NCBI RefSeq assembly: GCF_014678725.1
Contig: NZ_CP061497.1
Span: forward strand, 2,124,001 to 2,188,000
Origin: Thermomonas sp. XSG
GTDB taxonomy: Bacteria; Pseudomonadota; Gammaproteobacteria; Xanthomonadales; Xanthomonadaceae
Length of the DNA: 64,000 bases
Direction of reading: 5' to 3'
Part shown: piece after piece, positions 3,633 to 46,794 of the stretch
Position numbering within the stretch: the first letter of the stretch is position 1
Layout of the letters: every line of letters starts with the position of its first letter
Notes under the pieces: generated by a model
Database searches by the model: none
The model's input: only the letters and a program-made list of their open reading frames with translations
Told to the model about the DNA's origin: nothing
Position numbers and translations under genes: made by a program

Positions 3633-4319
3633 ATGAACGTCGTCGCCGATGCGGCCGCCGCATCGGCGGCGGGCCAGACCGAGCGCCTCAAGCTCACCGA
3701 GATCTTCCTGTCCCTGCAGGGCGAAGCCCGCGATGCCGGCTGGCCCACCGTGTTCGTGCGCCTGACCGGCTGCCCGCTCCGCTGCCAGTACTGCGACACC
3801 GCCTACGCCTTCCACGGCGGGCAGTGGTGGGAGATCGACGCGATCCTCGCCGAGGTCGCCCGGCACGGGGCGCGCCACGTCTGCGTCACCGGCGGCGAGC
3901 CGCTGGCCCAGAAGCGCTGCCTGCAGCTGCTGGAAAAGCTCTGCGACGCCGGTTACGTGGTCTCGTTGGAAACTTCCGGCGCGCTCGATATCGCCGGCGT
4001 CGATCCGCGTGTCTCGCGCGTGCTGGACATCAAGACGCCGGGATCGGGCGAGGTGGCGCGCAACCTGTGGAGCAACCTGCCGCTGCTGACCGCACACGAC
4101 CAGGTCAAATTCGTGATCTGCTCGCGCGAGGATTACGACTGGGCCAAGACCGTGGTCGCCGAGCACCGCCTGTGCGCGATCTGCGACGTGCTGTTTTCAC
4201 CCAGCGCCTCGCAGGTCGGCGCGCGCGAGCTTGCTGACTGGATCGTGGCCGACCGGCTGCCGGTGCGCTTCCAGGTGCAGCTGCACAAGCTGCTGTGGAA
4301 CGACGAGCCGGGTCGCTAG
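3633..4319 (+). CDS. queE: QueE, 7-carboxy-7-deazaguanine synthase
   Basis: Radical-SAM enzyme that converts 6-carboxytetrahydropterin to 7-carboxy-7-deazaguanine in preQ0/queuosine synthesis. The 228-residue protein has the cluster-binding motif CPLRCQYC (CX3CX2C, about residues 47-54), the [20 protein letters not shown] leader typical of QueE, and the VTGGEP substrate loop. It lies just downstream of cpoB and 49 bp before queC, the next pathway enzyme, so the pair is probably co-transcribed with the tail of the tol-pal genes. Confidence 0.95.
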
Positions 4320-4368: not shown

Positions 4369-5076
4369 ATGAACGCATCATCCAAGCCCGCGGTCGTCCT
4401 GGTGTCGGGCGGCATGGACTCCGCCGTCGTACTGGCCATTGCCCGCGAGGCCGGTTTCGCCCCGCACGCCCTGAGCGTGCGCTACGGCCAGCGCCACACC
4501 TCCGAGCTGGACGCCGCCGAGCGGGTGGCGCGGGCGCTTGGCGCGGTGGCCCACAAGACCGTCAACGTGGACCTGCGCAGCATCGGTGGGTCGGCGCTGA
4601 CCGATGACATCGACGTGCCCACCGATGCCGACGGCCACGTGATCGGGGAGGGCATCCCGTCCACCTACGTGCCGGCGCGCAACACCATCATGCTGTCGGT
4701 GGCGCTGGGCTGGGCCGAGGTGCTGGGCAGCACCGACCTGTTCTGCGGCGTCAACGCGGTGGACTATTCCGGCTATCCGGACTGCCGCCCCGAGTTCATC
4801 GCCGGCTTCGAGGCGCTGGCGAACCTGGCCACCAAGGCCGGCGTCGAAGGCAGCCGCTTCCGCGTGCATGCGCCGCTGATGCGGATGTCCAAGGCCGATA
4901 TCGCCCGCGAGGGCCTGCGCCTGGGCGTGGACTTCTCGCAGACGGTGAGCTGCTACCAGGCCGAAGCAGACGGCCGCGCCTGCGGCCACTGCGACGCCTG
5001 CCGCCTGCGCGCGCAGGGCTTTGCCGAGGCTGGCATCGCCGATCCGACCCGCTACGCCGGCGCCGGCATCGGTTAG
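4369..5076 (+). CDS. queC: QueC, 7-cyano-7-deazaguanine (preQ0) synthase
   Basis: ATP-dependent enzyme that turns the QueE product into preQ0. The 235-residue product begins with a PP-loop motif ([11 protein letters not shown], residues 10-20) and ends with a zinc-site cysteine cluster ([18 protein letters not shown]). The ATG at 4369 is preceded by an AAGGACGACAAGG purine stretch, whereas the longer open frame from 4231 runs inside queE and lacks a site. It ends 38 bp upstream of tRNA-Lys, a tRNA that is itself not queuosine-modified, so the adjacency is positional only. Confidence 0.95.
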
Positions 5077-5111
5077 AATGCGCCCCCCGGTGCAACGCCG
5101 GGCGTTCTTTT
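5076..5111 (+). terminator. Possible imperfect terminator between queC and tRNA-Lys
   Basis: GAATGC (5076-5081) pairs with GCGTTC (5102-5107), with further CC/GG and GG/CC pairs inside an internal loop, followed by TTTT. It would end queC transcription just before the tRNA. The stem is broken, so this is weak. Confidence 0.35.
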
Positions 5112-5114
5112 CGT

Positions 5115-5190
5115 GGGCCGTTAGCTCAGTCGGTAGAGCATCGGACTTTTAATCCGCTGGTCGATGGTTCGAATCCATCACGGCCCACCA
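5115..5190 (+). tRNA. tRNA-Lys (anticodon UUU)
   Basis: A 76-nt cloverleaf. Acceptor GGGCCGT (5115-5121) pairs with ACGGCCC (5180-5186). The D stem is GCTC/GAGC. The anticodon loop CTTTTAA (5146-5152) has anticodon TTT at 5148-5150. The T stem is GATGG/CCATC around TTCGAAT. The encoded end is A-CCA (5187-5190). The outer anticodon-stem position 27-43 reads U-C, a mismatch, while the other four pairs are sound. The 3' half is repeated several times directly downstream. Confidence 0.97.
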
Positions 5191-5513
5191 TTCCTCGGAG
5201 CAGTCGGTCTCCGAATCGGACTCAACCCGCTGGTCGATGGTTCGAATCCATCACGGCCCACCATTCCTCGGAGCAGTCGGTCTCCGAATCGGACTCAACC
5301 CGCTGGTCGATGGTTCGAATCCATCACGGCCACCATTCCTCGGAGCAGTCGGTCTCCGAATTGGACTCAACCCGCTGGTCGATGGTTCGAATCCATCACG
5401 GCCACCATTCCTCGGAACAGTCGGTCTCCGAATCGAACTCAACCCGAGGTCGATGGTTCGAATCCATCATGACCCACCATTTCTCGGAGCAGTCGGTTTC
5501 CGATTCCGACCCC
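5191..5513 (+). repeat. Tandem array of degenerate tRNA-Lys copies
   Basis: Four consecutive units follow the tRNA: 5191-5263 (73 bp), 5264-5335 (72), 5336-5407 (72) and 5408-5479 (72), then a partial fifth from 5480 to about 5513. Each full unit ends with the tRNA T-arm, acceptor 3' strand and CCA. Upstream of that, each also matches the tRNA: CAGTCGGT of the D loop, TCGGACT of the anticodon stem, and CCGCTGGTCGATGG of the 3' anticodon stem and variable loop. The 5' acceptor strand is missing and the D-arm 3' half is replaced by CTCCGAA. Units 2 and 3 lack one C of the acceptor; unit 4 is the most diverged (ATGACCCACCA, and AACCCGAGG in place of AACCCGCTGG). No unit can form the normal acceptor stem. 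No gene covers the array on either strand that I can support. Confidence 0.9.
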
Positions 5514-5557
5514 TGACAATTCTGGGATCGGGCGCTGGCGCCAGCGGCGCGCCGGGG

Positions 5558-6529
5558 TCAGGCGTCGCCCTGTCCGGCCATCTCCTGCGTGGACAAGTAC
5601 GGCATGGCCAGTGCGGCGCCGGCCTGCTCGGTGGAACGGGCGGCGTAGCGCGATGCGAAGCGCACGTGCTCGACGAAGGCGCGGTCGGGGTGTTGCACCA
5701 GCGAAGCGGCCAATGCGCCGTTGAAGGCATCGCCGGCGCCGGTGGTGTCGATGGCCTGCGCGGGCTCCGCGGACACCCGGTAGCAGGGTGCGCTGTCGCC
5801 GCGCGGCATCGACTCGGCGTGCGAGACGAAGCAGCCGCTGGCGCCGAGGGTGACGATGACGCTGCCGTGCGGCAGCAGCTCGCGGCAAAGCGCATGCAGG
5901 CGCGGCTGGTCGAGGCTGGCCACCGCATCGGCATCGATGCGCTCGCCCACGTGGCGGCCGACCAGGGCCGCGAACTCGGTTTCGTTCGGGGTCAGGATGT
6001 CGGCCCGCACCAGCATGGTTTCGTCGATGGCGACGTTGGCGGGTGCCGGGTTGAGCATCGCGGTGGCGCCGGCGGCACGGGCCGCATCCAGCGCCCGGGC
6101 GACCGCGTCCAGCGGCGACTCCAGCTGCGCCAGCACGAGGTCGGCGGCCGCTGCGTCGCCCAGCGCGCCGGCAACATGCTCGGGCGCCAGGGCGGCGTTC
6201 GCGCCGGCACCGATCACGATGCAGTTGCGGCCCTGCGCATCGACGTAGATGCCGGCGGTGCCTGTGGGATCGGCGACCACCGCGGCGTGCAGATCGATCC
6301 CGTCGGCGGCGCAAAGGGTACGCGCGAGTTGCGCGCCCACGTCCTCGCCTAGCGCGCACGCAAAGCGCGTATCCGCGCCGGCACGGCGGGCGGCAACGGC
6401 CTGGTTGAAGCCCTTGCCACCGGGGCCGCTGGCGTAGTTGCCGCTCAGGGTGGCGCCAGGGGCGGGCAGCGAGGCAACCCGCCAGACGTGGTCGACGTTG
6501 AAAGAGCCGATGACGAGGACGCGCGCCAT
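5558..6529 (-). CDS. PfkB-family sugar kinase, ribokinase-like
   Basis: Cytoplasmic ATP-dependent kinase of a sugar or nucleoside. The 323-residue protein carries the ribokinase N-terminal signature (VIGSFNVDHV; GPGGKGFNQAVAARRAG at about residues 37-53) and the C-terminal PfkB signature DTTGAGDAFNGAL with the catalytic Asp of GAGD. The GG-KG-NQA loop favours ribose or a ribonucleoside as substrate rather than fructose-6-phosphate. The start codon lies 2 nt after the stop of the upstream nucleoside-permease-like gene, so the pair probably imports and phosphorylates a nucleoside or its ribose. The exact substrate cannot be read from the sequence. Confidence 0.88.
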   Translation of the reverse strand: MARVLVIGSFNVDHVWRVASLPAPGATLSGNYASGPGGKGFNQAVAARRAGADTRFACALGEDVGAQLARTLCAADGIDLHAAVVADPTGTAGIYVDAQGRNCIVIGAGANAALAPEHVAGALGDAAAADLVLAQLESPLDAVARALDAARAAGATAMLNPAPANVAIDETMLVRADILTPNETEFAALVGRHVGERIDADAVASLDQPRLHALCRELLPHGSVIVTLGASGCFVSHAESMPRGDSAPCYRVSAEPAQAIDTTGAGDAFNGALAASLVQHPDRAFVEHVRFASRYAARSTEQAGAALAMPYLSTQEMAGQGDA

Positions 6530-6531
6530 GC

Positions 6532-7866
6532 TCAGGGATTGCCCACGTCGGCCGGACCGTGCGCCGGTACCACCCGGTGCGGCTCGTGGCGGTGCTTGAA
6601 CAACGGGACGAAGGCCGCCGCCATCGCCAGCGAGTACAGCGCGAAGGCGGTCCAGATGCCCCGCCAGTCCTTGACCCCGTCCGGCGCGGTGAACCAATGG
6701 TCGATCACGAAGCCAGCCACCAGGCTGCCGAGCACCGCGCCGATACCGTTGGTCATCAGCATGTACAGGCCCTGCGCGCTGGCGCGGATCTTCGGGTCGG
6801 CCTGCTGTTCCACGAACAGCGAGCCGGAGATATTGAAGAAGTCGAACGCCATGCCGTAGACGATGCACGACAGCACGATCATCCACAGGCCGGCGCCCGG
6901 ATCGCCGTAGGCGAACAGGCCGAAGCGCAGGAACCACGCCAGCATGCTGATCGTCATCACCGTCTTGATGCCGAAGCGGCGCAGGAAGAACGGGATGGTG
7001 AGGATGAACAGGGTTTCGCTGATCTGCGAGATGGACATGATGATGGCGGGATAGCGCACCGCCAGCGTGTCCTTGTAGGCATCGACGTTCGCGAAGTCGT
7101 GCAGGAAGGTGTCGCCGTAGGCGTTGGTGAGCTGCAGCGCCGCGCCCAGCAGCATCGCGAACACGAAGAACACCGCCATGTTGCGGTCGCGGAACAGGCG
7201 GAAGGAGGACAGCCCCAGCACGTCCACCAGCGAGCGCTTGCCGGCGTCCTTGCCCAGCGTCGGCGGGCAGGGCGGCAGGGAGAAGGCGTACAGGCCCAGC
7301 ACCAGCGCGGCGGCGGCAGCGATGTAGAACTGGCCGGGCGAGGTCTCCAGCTTCAGCAGGCTGGTGGTCCACAGGGCGGCGATGAAGCCCACCGTGCCCC
7401 ACACGCGGATTGGCGGATAGTCGCGCACGACGTCCAGCCCCTCGCGCTTGAGCGCGTTGTAGGCCACCGCGATCGCCAGCGAGATCGTCGGCATGTAGCA
7501 GATCATCGTCGCCAGCATCACCCAGAACATGGTGTGCGGGTCGTCCACCGTGGGCACCAGGAACAGCATCACCGCACCAGCCAGGTGCAGTGCGCCGTAG
7601 AGCTTCTGCGCGCTGATCCAGCGGTCGGCCACCACGCCCATCAGTGCCGGCATGAACAGCGCCGAGATGCCCATGGTGGAGAAGATCGCGCCGAAGCTGG
7701 TCCCGGACCACTGCTTGTGCTGGAACCAGTACGCGCCGATGGTGATCAGCCACGCCCCCCAGATGAAGAACTGGAGGAAGTTCATGATGGTCAGGCGCAG
7801 CTTCAGGCTCACGTAGGCTCCCAGGCCAGGCGGCTGGGATGCGCCTGCAGCGCGCAGGTTAGTCAT
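6532..7866 (-). CDS. MFS nucleoside:H+ symporter family permease (NupG-like)
   Basis: Inner-membrane transporter of about 444 residues with twelve predicted membrane spans. The N-terminal segment (KLRLTIMNFLQFFIWGAW, then GVVADRW) is typical of the NupG/XapB nucleoside:proton symporters. A second set of helices with SGSLFVEQQADPKIRASAQG in the loop before TM10 also matches that family. Several start codons are possible (ATG at 7866 or 7875, TTG at 7884); 7866 is chosen as the first residue of the conserved part, without a strong ribosome-binding site. It precedes the ribokinase-like gene in one operon. Confidence 0.85.
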   Translation of the reverse strand: MTNLRAAGASQPPGLGAYVSLKLRLTIMNFLQFFIWGAWLITIGAYWFQHKQWSGTSFGAIFSTMGISALFMPALMGVVADRWISAQKLYGALHLAGAVMLFLVPTVDDPHTMFWVMLATMICYMPTISLAIAVAYNALKREGLDVVRDYPPIRVWGTVGFIAALWTTSLLKLETSPGQFYIAAAAALVLGLYAFSLPPCPPTLGKDAGKRSLVDVLGLSSFRLFRDRNMAVFFVFAMLLGAALQLTNAYGDTFLHDFANVDAYKDTLAVRYPAIIMSISQISETLFILTIPFFLRRFGIKTVMTISMLAWFLRFGLFAYGDPGAGLWMIVLSCIVYGMAFDFFNISGSLFVEQQADPKIRASAQGLYMLMTNGIGAVLGSLVAGFVIDHWFTAPDGVKDWRGIWTAFALYSLAMAAAFVPLFKHRHEPHRVVPAHGPADVGNP

Positions 7867-13000: not shown

Positions 13001-13051
13001 GTCTTTCGTAACTGGGCTTTACCGATTTACCCAATGACGAGGAGCCATCCC

Positions 13052-13552
13052 ATGGCTGTTAAGAAAGCTGCGAAGAAAGCCGTTGCCAAGAAACCGGCGG
13101 CGAAGAAGGTTGCCAAGAAGGCTGTCGCCAAGAAGCCGGCGGCCAAGAAGGTTGCAAAGAAGGCTGTCGCCAAGAAGCCGGCCGCCAAGAAGGCGGTGAA
13201 GAAGGCCGTTGCCAAGAAGCCGGCGGCCAAGAAGGTCGCGAAGAAGGCTGTTGCCAAGAAGCCGGTCGCCAAGAAGGCCGCAAAGAAGGCCGTCGCCAAG
13301 AAGCCGGCGGCGAAGAAGGCTGTTGCGAAGAAGGCCGTCGCCAAGAAGGCCGTCGCCAAGAAGCCGGCGGCGAAGAAGGCCGTTGCCAAGAAGGCCGTCG
13401 CCAAGAAGCCGGCAGCGAAGAAGGCTGTCGCCAAGAAGCCGGCGGCGAAGAAGGCCGTTGCCAAGAAGCCGGCTGCGAAGAAGCCTGCTGCCAAGAAGGC
13501 CAAGCCTGCCGCTGCTCCGCAGATGCCGGCTGCTCCGGTGCCGACGCTGTAA
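13052..13552 (+). CDS. Lys/Ala/Pro-repeat histone H1-like DNA-binding protein
   Basis: A 166-residue protein made almost wholly of tandem [12 protein letters not shown]-type repeats (about residues 5-150), with a short neutral tail ([12 protein letters not shown]). This composition matches the bacterial H1-like/AlgP-type C-terminal domain, which binds DNA non-specifically and is thought to compact or regulate chromatin. The start at 13052 is preceded by CGAGGAG with 7-nt spacing; a start at 13034 would add six residues without a site. The near-identical DNA repeats are prone to length change by recombination or slippage, so repeat number may vary between strains. It has its own terminator and a long structured leader. 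Confidence 0.85.
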
Positions 13553-46670: not shown

Positions 46671-46794
46671 GCATCCATCGAGACCGGCGGAGGGACAGGC
46701 CCTTTGATGCCGGGGCAACCAGACGGCGCGCGCAGGCGCGTTGGCGAGGTGCCAAATCCTGCGGGGACCTGAGCGTCTGCCGGAAGATGGTTGC
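46671..46794 (+). promoter_or_regulatory. SAM-I (S-box) riboswitch
   Basis: The S-box core is plain: GGAGGGAC at 46689-46696 followed by GGCCC, GGCAACC at 46714-46720, and GGTGCCAAATCC at 46748-46759. P1 closes GCA-T-CCATC (46671-46679) with GATGG-T-TGC (46786-46794). It lies 93 nt upstream of metX, the first enzyme of the methionine branch. SAM binding should lower expression of the metX-metB-hom operon. Confidence 0.95.

Follow-up and report, generated by a model that had tools for sequence, protein, structure and literature searches.

The tRNA-Tyr gene of Escherichia coli tyrT/tyrV is followed by three tandem units of 178 bp, the rtT (RttR) repeats, each ending, in the sequence read here, in an exact copy of the 19-nt tRNA-Tyr tail. 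A 122-bp VNTR at the rtT RNA of Salmonella is listed in a table of PMC2658671 (see also PMC2965389). In the literature searched (with few terms, and including few subscription journals), the E. coli repeats were the only bacterial case found; no array of such kind at a bacterial tRNA-Lys gene was found there, though one may have been published. Some tRNA 3' external transcribed spacers, such as 3'ETS-leuZ, act as sponges. These spacers are not known to be tandem tRNA copies.

The window analyzed here, a stretch of 64,000 nucleotides from Thermomonas sp. XSG, carries a functional gene for tRNA-Lys(UUU) that encodes the CCA (5115..5190, forward strand; called by ARAGORN, Rfam RF00005 at 76 bits). 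This gene is the template of an array which follows it on the same strand, without gaps and in phase with the CCA, and consists of four full pseudo-tRNA units and a partial one. The array, described in an earlier sequence-only reading as having a spacing of 72–73 bp, is real: it was recovered by reading in phase, with unit lengths of 73, 72, 72 and 72 bp, and by TRF, which reported a 72-bp unit, 4.9 copies and 94% matches. Unit 1 (5191..5263, 73 bp) shares its last 28 nt with the tRNA. Units 2 (5264..5335) and 3 (5336..5407), both of 72 bp, have acceptor strands short of one C, and unit 3 has in addition one core change. Unit 4 (5408..5479, 72 bp), by eye the most diverged of the full units, has further changes. 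These losses and changes qualify the statement in the same reading that each unit keeps T-arm and CCA. Partial unit 5 (about 5480..5510, about 31 nt) is made of spacer, D-loop-like part and only the start of the anticodon part.

Unit 1 reads, in order, TTCCTCGGAG, CAGTCGGT, CTCCGAA, TCGGACT, CAACCCGCTGG, TCGATGGTTCGAATCCATC, ACGGCCCACCA, and comprises spacer, D-loop, altered D-arm strand, 5' anticodon strand, shortened loop and whole 3' half. The closing 37 nt of each full unit, from variable loop through T-arm and acceptor strand to CCA, are almost the same as the 3' half of tRNA-Lys. In the units, CTTTTAA of the anticodon loop is reduced to CTCAA, and the 5' acceptor strand is absent from all of them. 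ARAGORN called tRNA-Lys(UUU) as the sole tRNA in the window, and none of the units; in Rfam, searched over 5040-5600 at E values up to 5, no unit matched a tRNA. Because the units do not score as tRNAs, the array is not a functional tRNA cluster.

The array is flanked upstream by queC (4369..5076 from an internal ATG, the longest frame starting at 4231; forward strand; Pfam QueC, E 4e-74), and downstream by a frame for a pfkB-family, ribokinase-like carbohydrate kinase (5558..6532, reverse strand; Pfam PfkB, E 3e-46). By Pfam, the four neighbouring frames are QueE-like, QueC, PfkB and a nucleoside symporter. Two open frames, 5164-5472 and 5237-6352 (MVRIHHGPPFLG..., GSNPSRP...), cross the array and might be taken for proteins in an annotation; what they translate is derived from tRNA, and their presence does not argue for genes there. 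Elsewhere in the window, a SAM riboswitch resides at 46672-46793 (Rfam RF00162, 71 bits), and positions 13034-13552 encode a lysine-alanine repeat protein (Pfam HC2, histone H1-like) with 15-, 30- and 42-bp tandem DNA repeats.

The units align with tRNA-Lys colinearly from the D-loop to the CCA. After removal of the last 36 nt, unit 1 of the window still matches tRNA positions 13-33 in order, with a score reached by 7 of 1000 dinucleotide shuffles. In the same test, the first units of 15 carrier genomes gave values from 0 to 216 of 1000, the worst being those of G104 (Luteimonas weifangensis, 216) and G009 (Thermomonas, 91). Taken alone, the shuffle test would be moderate evidence for homology in the D-loop and anticodon-stem regions. 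Host-specific variants beyond the 3' half are stronger evidence: the unit of Lysobacter sp. CAU 1642 (G057) has CAGTTGGT and GCGGACT, both as in its own tRNA, and the unit of Rehaibacterium terrae (G051) has GCTGGCT, again as in its own tRNA. Colinearity, shuffles and host-specific variants together make the D-loop and anticodon-stem matches better than chance. Derivation from the whole tRNA, as proposed earlier, holds for most of the molecule, from D-loop to CCA and not the 3' end only; the 5' acceptor strand is missing.

The genome of the window (G000) measures 3.05 Mb in one contig. A search over 25 Thermomonas genomes gave best matches, of varying length, at tRNA-Lys. Pseudo-tRNA units were found behind this gene in 8 of 20 Thermomonas loci, a set which leaves out G021 (stretch without Lys-UUU), G017, G018, G022 and G024. 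Five units reside in Thermomonas sp. S9 (G013), four in the window genome and in G003, two in Thermomonas hydrothermalis (G007); one unit was counted in T. haemolytica (G006), T. flagellata (G005), G009, and G015, a MAG labelled Xanthomonas sp. Units occur also in eight other genera of Xanthomonadaceae, with copy numbers from 1 up to at least 6. Vulcaniibacterium thermophilum (G044) has five units and a worn sixth; R. terrae has at least six, with a run of N inside the array that the numbering after the first unit skips; G085 has two. The unit is present in L. weifangensis, Lysobacter sp. CAU 1642, Arenimonas fontis (G099) and a Pseudoxanthomonas suwonensis MAG (G071), as in G088, where a hairpin-rich insertion divides its T-arm and a phage-like gene adjoins. 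T. hydrothermalis, V. thermophilum, R. terrae and A. fontis are hot-spring or thermophilic species, and carriers may often be of this kind. Unit length ranges from 67 to 76 bp across carriers, and the array of one relative lies in a Canu contig. Copy number at the same locus varies among Xanthomonadaceae, from 1 to at least 6. Of the interpretations put forward earlier, repeated slippage at the tRNA gene is supported, in the form of repeated duplication.

Tail repeats were found in 17 of 100 tRNA-Lys(UUU) loci from 44 genera, a share biased upward by sample choice: the loci are the 20 of Thermomonas and 80 others from a set of 169 genomes, and 7 of these 80 (G044, G051, G057, G085, G088, G099, G104) were picked for earlier signals. 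In less biased searches, which share some genomes, the core described below was found at up to 3 mismatches in 8 of 395 genomes, and tRNA-Lys units were found by a T-arm pattern in 12 of 296 (rows read by eye). An exact degenerate pattern, which misses variants such as those of G085 and G009, matched 26 stretches in 84,980 species genomes. Eleven have a unit, and all are from Xanthomonadaceae; behind the remaining 15 matches no unit is present, and the one that passed a loose T-arm test has no CCA end. Among 350 genomes of the class, the T-arm pattern matched 10, the window's own among them. None of the other nine is a tRNA-Lys unit; six were read, from rows only, as functional tRNAs in tandem, two as Y-RNA-like elements and one as a chance match.

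Back-to-back tRNA-like modules, with anticodon parts that vary widely, mark about 36 of the 296 genomes (rows read by eye). Three of them, L053 (G029), L057 (G032) and L067 (G127), score in Rfam as tRNA at 44-51 bits and, below the cut-off, as YrlA (Y RNA-like) at 29-35 bits; the modules of L067 are followed by an SPFH (Band 7) protein. These double modules are probably Y-RNA-like RNAs of Xanthomonadaceae. By eye, the stretch behind tRNA-Lys resembles an integration hot spot, with toxin-antitoxin-like frames in G014 (L033) and G019 (L034), a restriction-like frame in G015 (L021) and a phage tail-like gene in G088 (L037).

Units resemble the tRNA of their own host. Summed over 15 genomes, the tail of unit 1 differs from the own tRNA by 16 edits; when hosts were reassigned in 10,000 trials, a permutation that ignores the relatedness of hosts, the mean was 73 edits and the minimum 36. 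In 13 of the 15 genomes, no other tRNA type is as near to unit 1 as the own one. The exceptions are G015, whose unit is nearer to the tRNAs of other hosts (1 edit, versus 3 to its own), and A. fontis, with a tie. Similarity to the tRNA is polar, unit 1 being strictly the closest in six of seven multi-unit arrays, and tied in one. Some T-stems are hybrid: their left half, GCAGG, is that of other units, and their right half that of the host tRNA. Such stems were found in Thermomonas sp. S9 (units 2-4), T. flagellata (unit 1) and R. terrae (unit 2). Units 2-5 of V. thermophilum combine GTAGG with CCTGC, and are either the result of point changes or hybrids of opposite direction. Host agreement, polarity and hybrid tails together show concerted evolution of the units with the live gene.

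It seems rather probable that the array is what is left of an ancient tandem duplicate of tRNA-Lys, kept changing by recombination with the live gene. The gene would have been duplicated in tandem long ago, and the downstream copy would have lost the 5' acceptor strand, altered the D-arm and shortened the anticodon loop, and ended as the pseudo-tRNA unit, about 72 bp long. Recombination between the 3' half of the gene and the units could then add, delete and rewrite units and, because full units share nearly the same 37-nt 3' half, leave the tRNA unharmed. If tRNA and unit crossed over unequally within the tail, hybrid T-stems would result; gene conversion would look alike, and either may be the route. 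Recombination with the gene would account for copy-number variation, host agreement, the best match of the neighbouring unit and the hybrid tails. The other tail repeats at tRNA-Lys, in G002 and G181, speak for it as well. The misfit of G015, the tie in A. fontis, units 2-5 of V. thermophilum, and a core that is absent from the tRNA and yet kept count against this model. Overall the array looks mainly like a recombination by-product, and most of the unit would need no function. The 3' half of the tRNA gene changes together with its row of spare copies, and the array is a natural record of how a tRNA gene recombines, one that can be counted and in which copy number, polarity and hybrid tails are legible across species.

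The core is formed by CTC after the D-loop and CTCAAC in the anticodon loop, neither of which is found in tRNA-Lys. Eight genomes of eight genera were aligned with MAFFT, spacers being of unequal length. Identity is at chance level in the spacer (23%), and reaches 67% in the D-loop part, 92% in the CTC, which replaces AGA, 56% in the next nine bases, 87% in the CTCAAC loop, 91% in CCGCTGGTC, 78% in the T-arm and 87% in acceptor strand plus CCA. Since both are absent from the tRNA, CTC and the shortened loop cannot be kept by copying from it. Judging from few positions in related genomes, preservation of the core appears unexplained by recombination with the tRNA; selection would fit, as would exchange between genera followed by spacer replacement. 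Why a short non-tRNA stretch stays constant across genera while the adjoining sequence is lost is the question that the array poses.

It is rather unlikely that the array is a selected RNA element of the tRNA-Lys 3' trailer, in which units would multiply a candidate partner-binding core (GGTCTCgcA...CTCAACCCG) for a small RNA, a protein or Rho, as with rtT RNA or 3'ETS sponges. Core identities of 87-92% next to a spacer at chance argue for it, as do A. fontis and T. flagellata, where an intrinsic terminator follows the unit, which places the unit before the likely end of the transcript. A common structure is, however, not apparent. The window unit folds no better than its shuffles (z 0.12) and, of 12 other unit slices, one of which (G057, L122:731-800) is out of register, three are near -2 (G003, G015, G104) and the rest range from -1.12 to 0.34. 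For the whole window transcript z is -1.76, with 6 of 100 shuffles as good. Conserved unit-specific positions are few. Moreover, 12 of the 20 Thermomonas loci have no such unit (G002, among them, has a repeat of another kind), and the unit is thus dispensable. That the unit is a maintained Xanthomonadaceae element, the core being a selected candidate binding site in the trailer and its dose being tuned as recombination with the tRNA gene expands and contracts the array, is unlikely; if so, the tRNA-Lys gene would serve as copying template of its own regulator.

T-stem pairing is full in 27 of 36 units, with 4 pairs left in five and 3 of 5 pairs in four. Folds and T-stems show little sign of a required tRNA-like structure. 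A role as source of processed tRNA-like fragments, or as decoy for CCA-adding or RNase enzymes, had been suggested for the array, and is lowered, though not directly refuted, by this lack of stability beyond shuffles and of a maintained T-stem, and by units that have no 5' acceptor strand and are not recognized as tRNA. Substitution for an intrinsic terminator was also rejected. A simple scan of our own placed such terminators behind the last unit at 2 of 15 array loci and, among 83 other loci, behind the tRNA at 9, with no difference seen.

Units could alternatively be scars left where elements integrated repeatedly into the 3' end of tRNA-Lys, or serve as spare attachment sites that protect the tRNA, and about 37 nt are indeed common to units and tRNA tail. 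In G088, the tRNA-Lys 3' half is flanked by a phage-like gene on one side and by the unit on the other. A link of the array to integrative elements is very unlikely: the exact core pattern had 0 matches in 2.9 million viral contigs, a result which led us to reject a phage origin of the core, units are gapless and in phase with the tRNA, and the neighbours in the window are queC, the pfkB-type kinase and the nucleoside symporter, no integrase being found by Pfam in the four frames scanned. It is similarly improbable that each lineage made units independently from its own tRNA, host agreement reflecting recent origin rather than rewriting. The agreement itself, and repeats of other types that arose at tRNA-Lys in G002 and G181, speak in favour; yet units of eight genera share non-tRNA changes (CTC, CTCAA loop), and hybrid tails need an older unit as recombination partner. 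Assembly artefacts, to which tandem repeats are prone and which the run of N in R. terrae brings to mind, can practically be dismissed, as misassembly is contradicted by unit copies that differ, by 15 genomes that agree in kind, by relatives that carry the array and by a window genome in one contig.

Tail repeats other than the unit are found as well. Two copies of a repeat of about 120 bp ending in the tRNA-Lys tail reside in G002 (L028), a stretch similar to it, with a worn tail, in G011 (L031), and two copies of a 104-bp repeat, again ending in the tRNA-Lys tail, in G181 (L133). In the window genome, tRNA-Ser(UGA) (L227) is followed, about 120-139 nt behind, by one worn tail copy with 3 edits in 20 nt, possibly an rtT-like remnant; 43 tRNA genes besides tRNA-Lys were examined over 550 nt downstream, this one included, and the best tail copies of the others show 5-8 edits. 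A plan common to rtT, the tRNA-Ser(UGA) tail copy, G002 and G011, namely a decayed tRNA copy whose T-loop is interrupted by an insertion, was noticed by eye and dropped because local alignments gave no support, nor did they establish homology between tRNA-Tyr and the rtT unit outside its tail: of 2000 shuffles, 73, 192 and 387 reached the scores of the rtT units, and 457, 421 and 415 those of the other three. G088, where the unit core directly adjoins the insertion, is an exception.

The array can be set beside three known systems. Tandem tRNA clusters share head-to-tail copies of about tRNA length with CCA ends; in contrast, array units have no 5' acceptor strand, have a shortened anticodon loop, and are unrecognized by ARAGORN and Rfam. 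3'ETS sponges are likened here by position, as the array would also occupy the trailer of a tRNA transcript. E. coli tyrT, named earlier as the nearest analogue, indeed is so, with its 178-bp units and 19-nt tRNA-Tyr end copies. Like rtT, the array is a row of tandem units directly behind a tRNA gene, and every full unit carries a copy of the tRNA 3' end and stops in phase with the CCA. Unlike rtT, whose long units have short tails, it is made, across carriers, of units of 67-76 bp, with tRNA homology from the D-loop on. The Rfam library includes the rtT family, and the scan of 5040-5600 (E up to 5) gave no match to any rtT family. The array works like rtT in layout, and fails its sequence features. 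A second case, spread in a family and accompanied by other repeat types at the same gene, suggests a general process.
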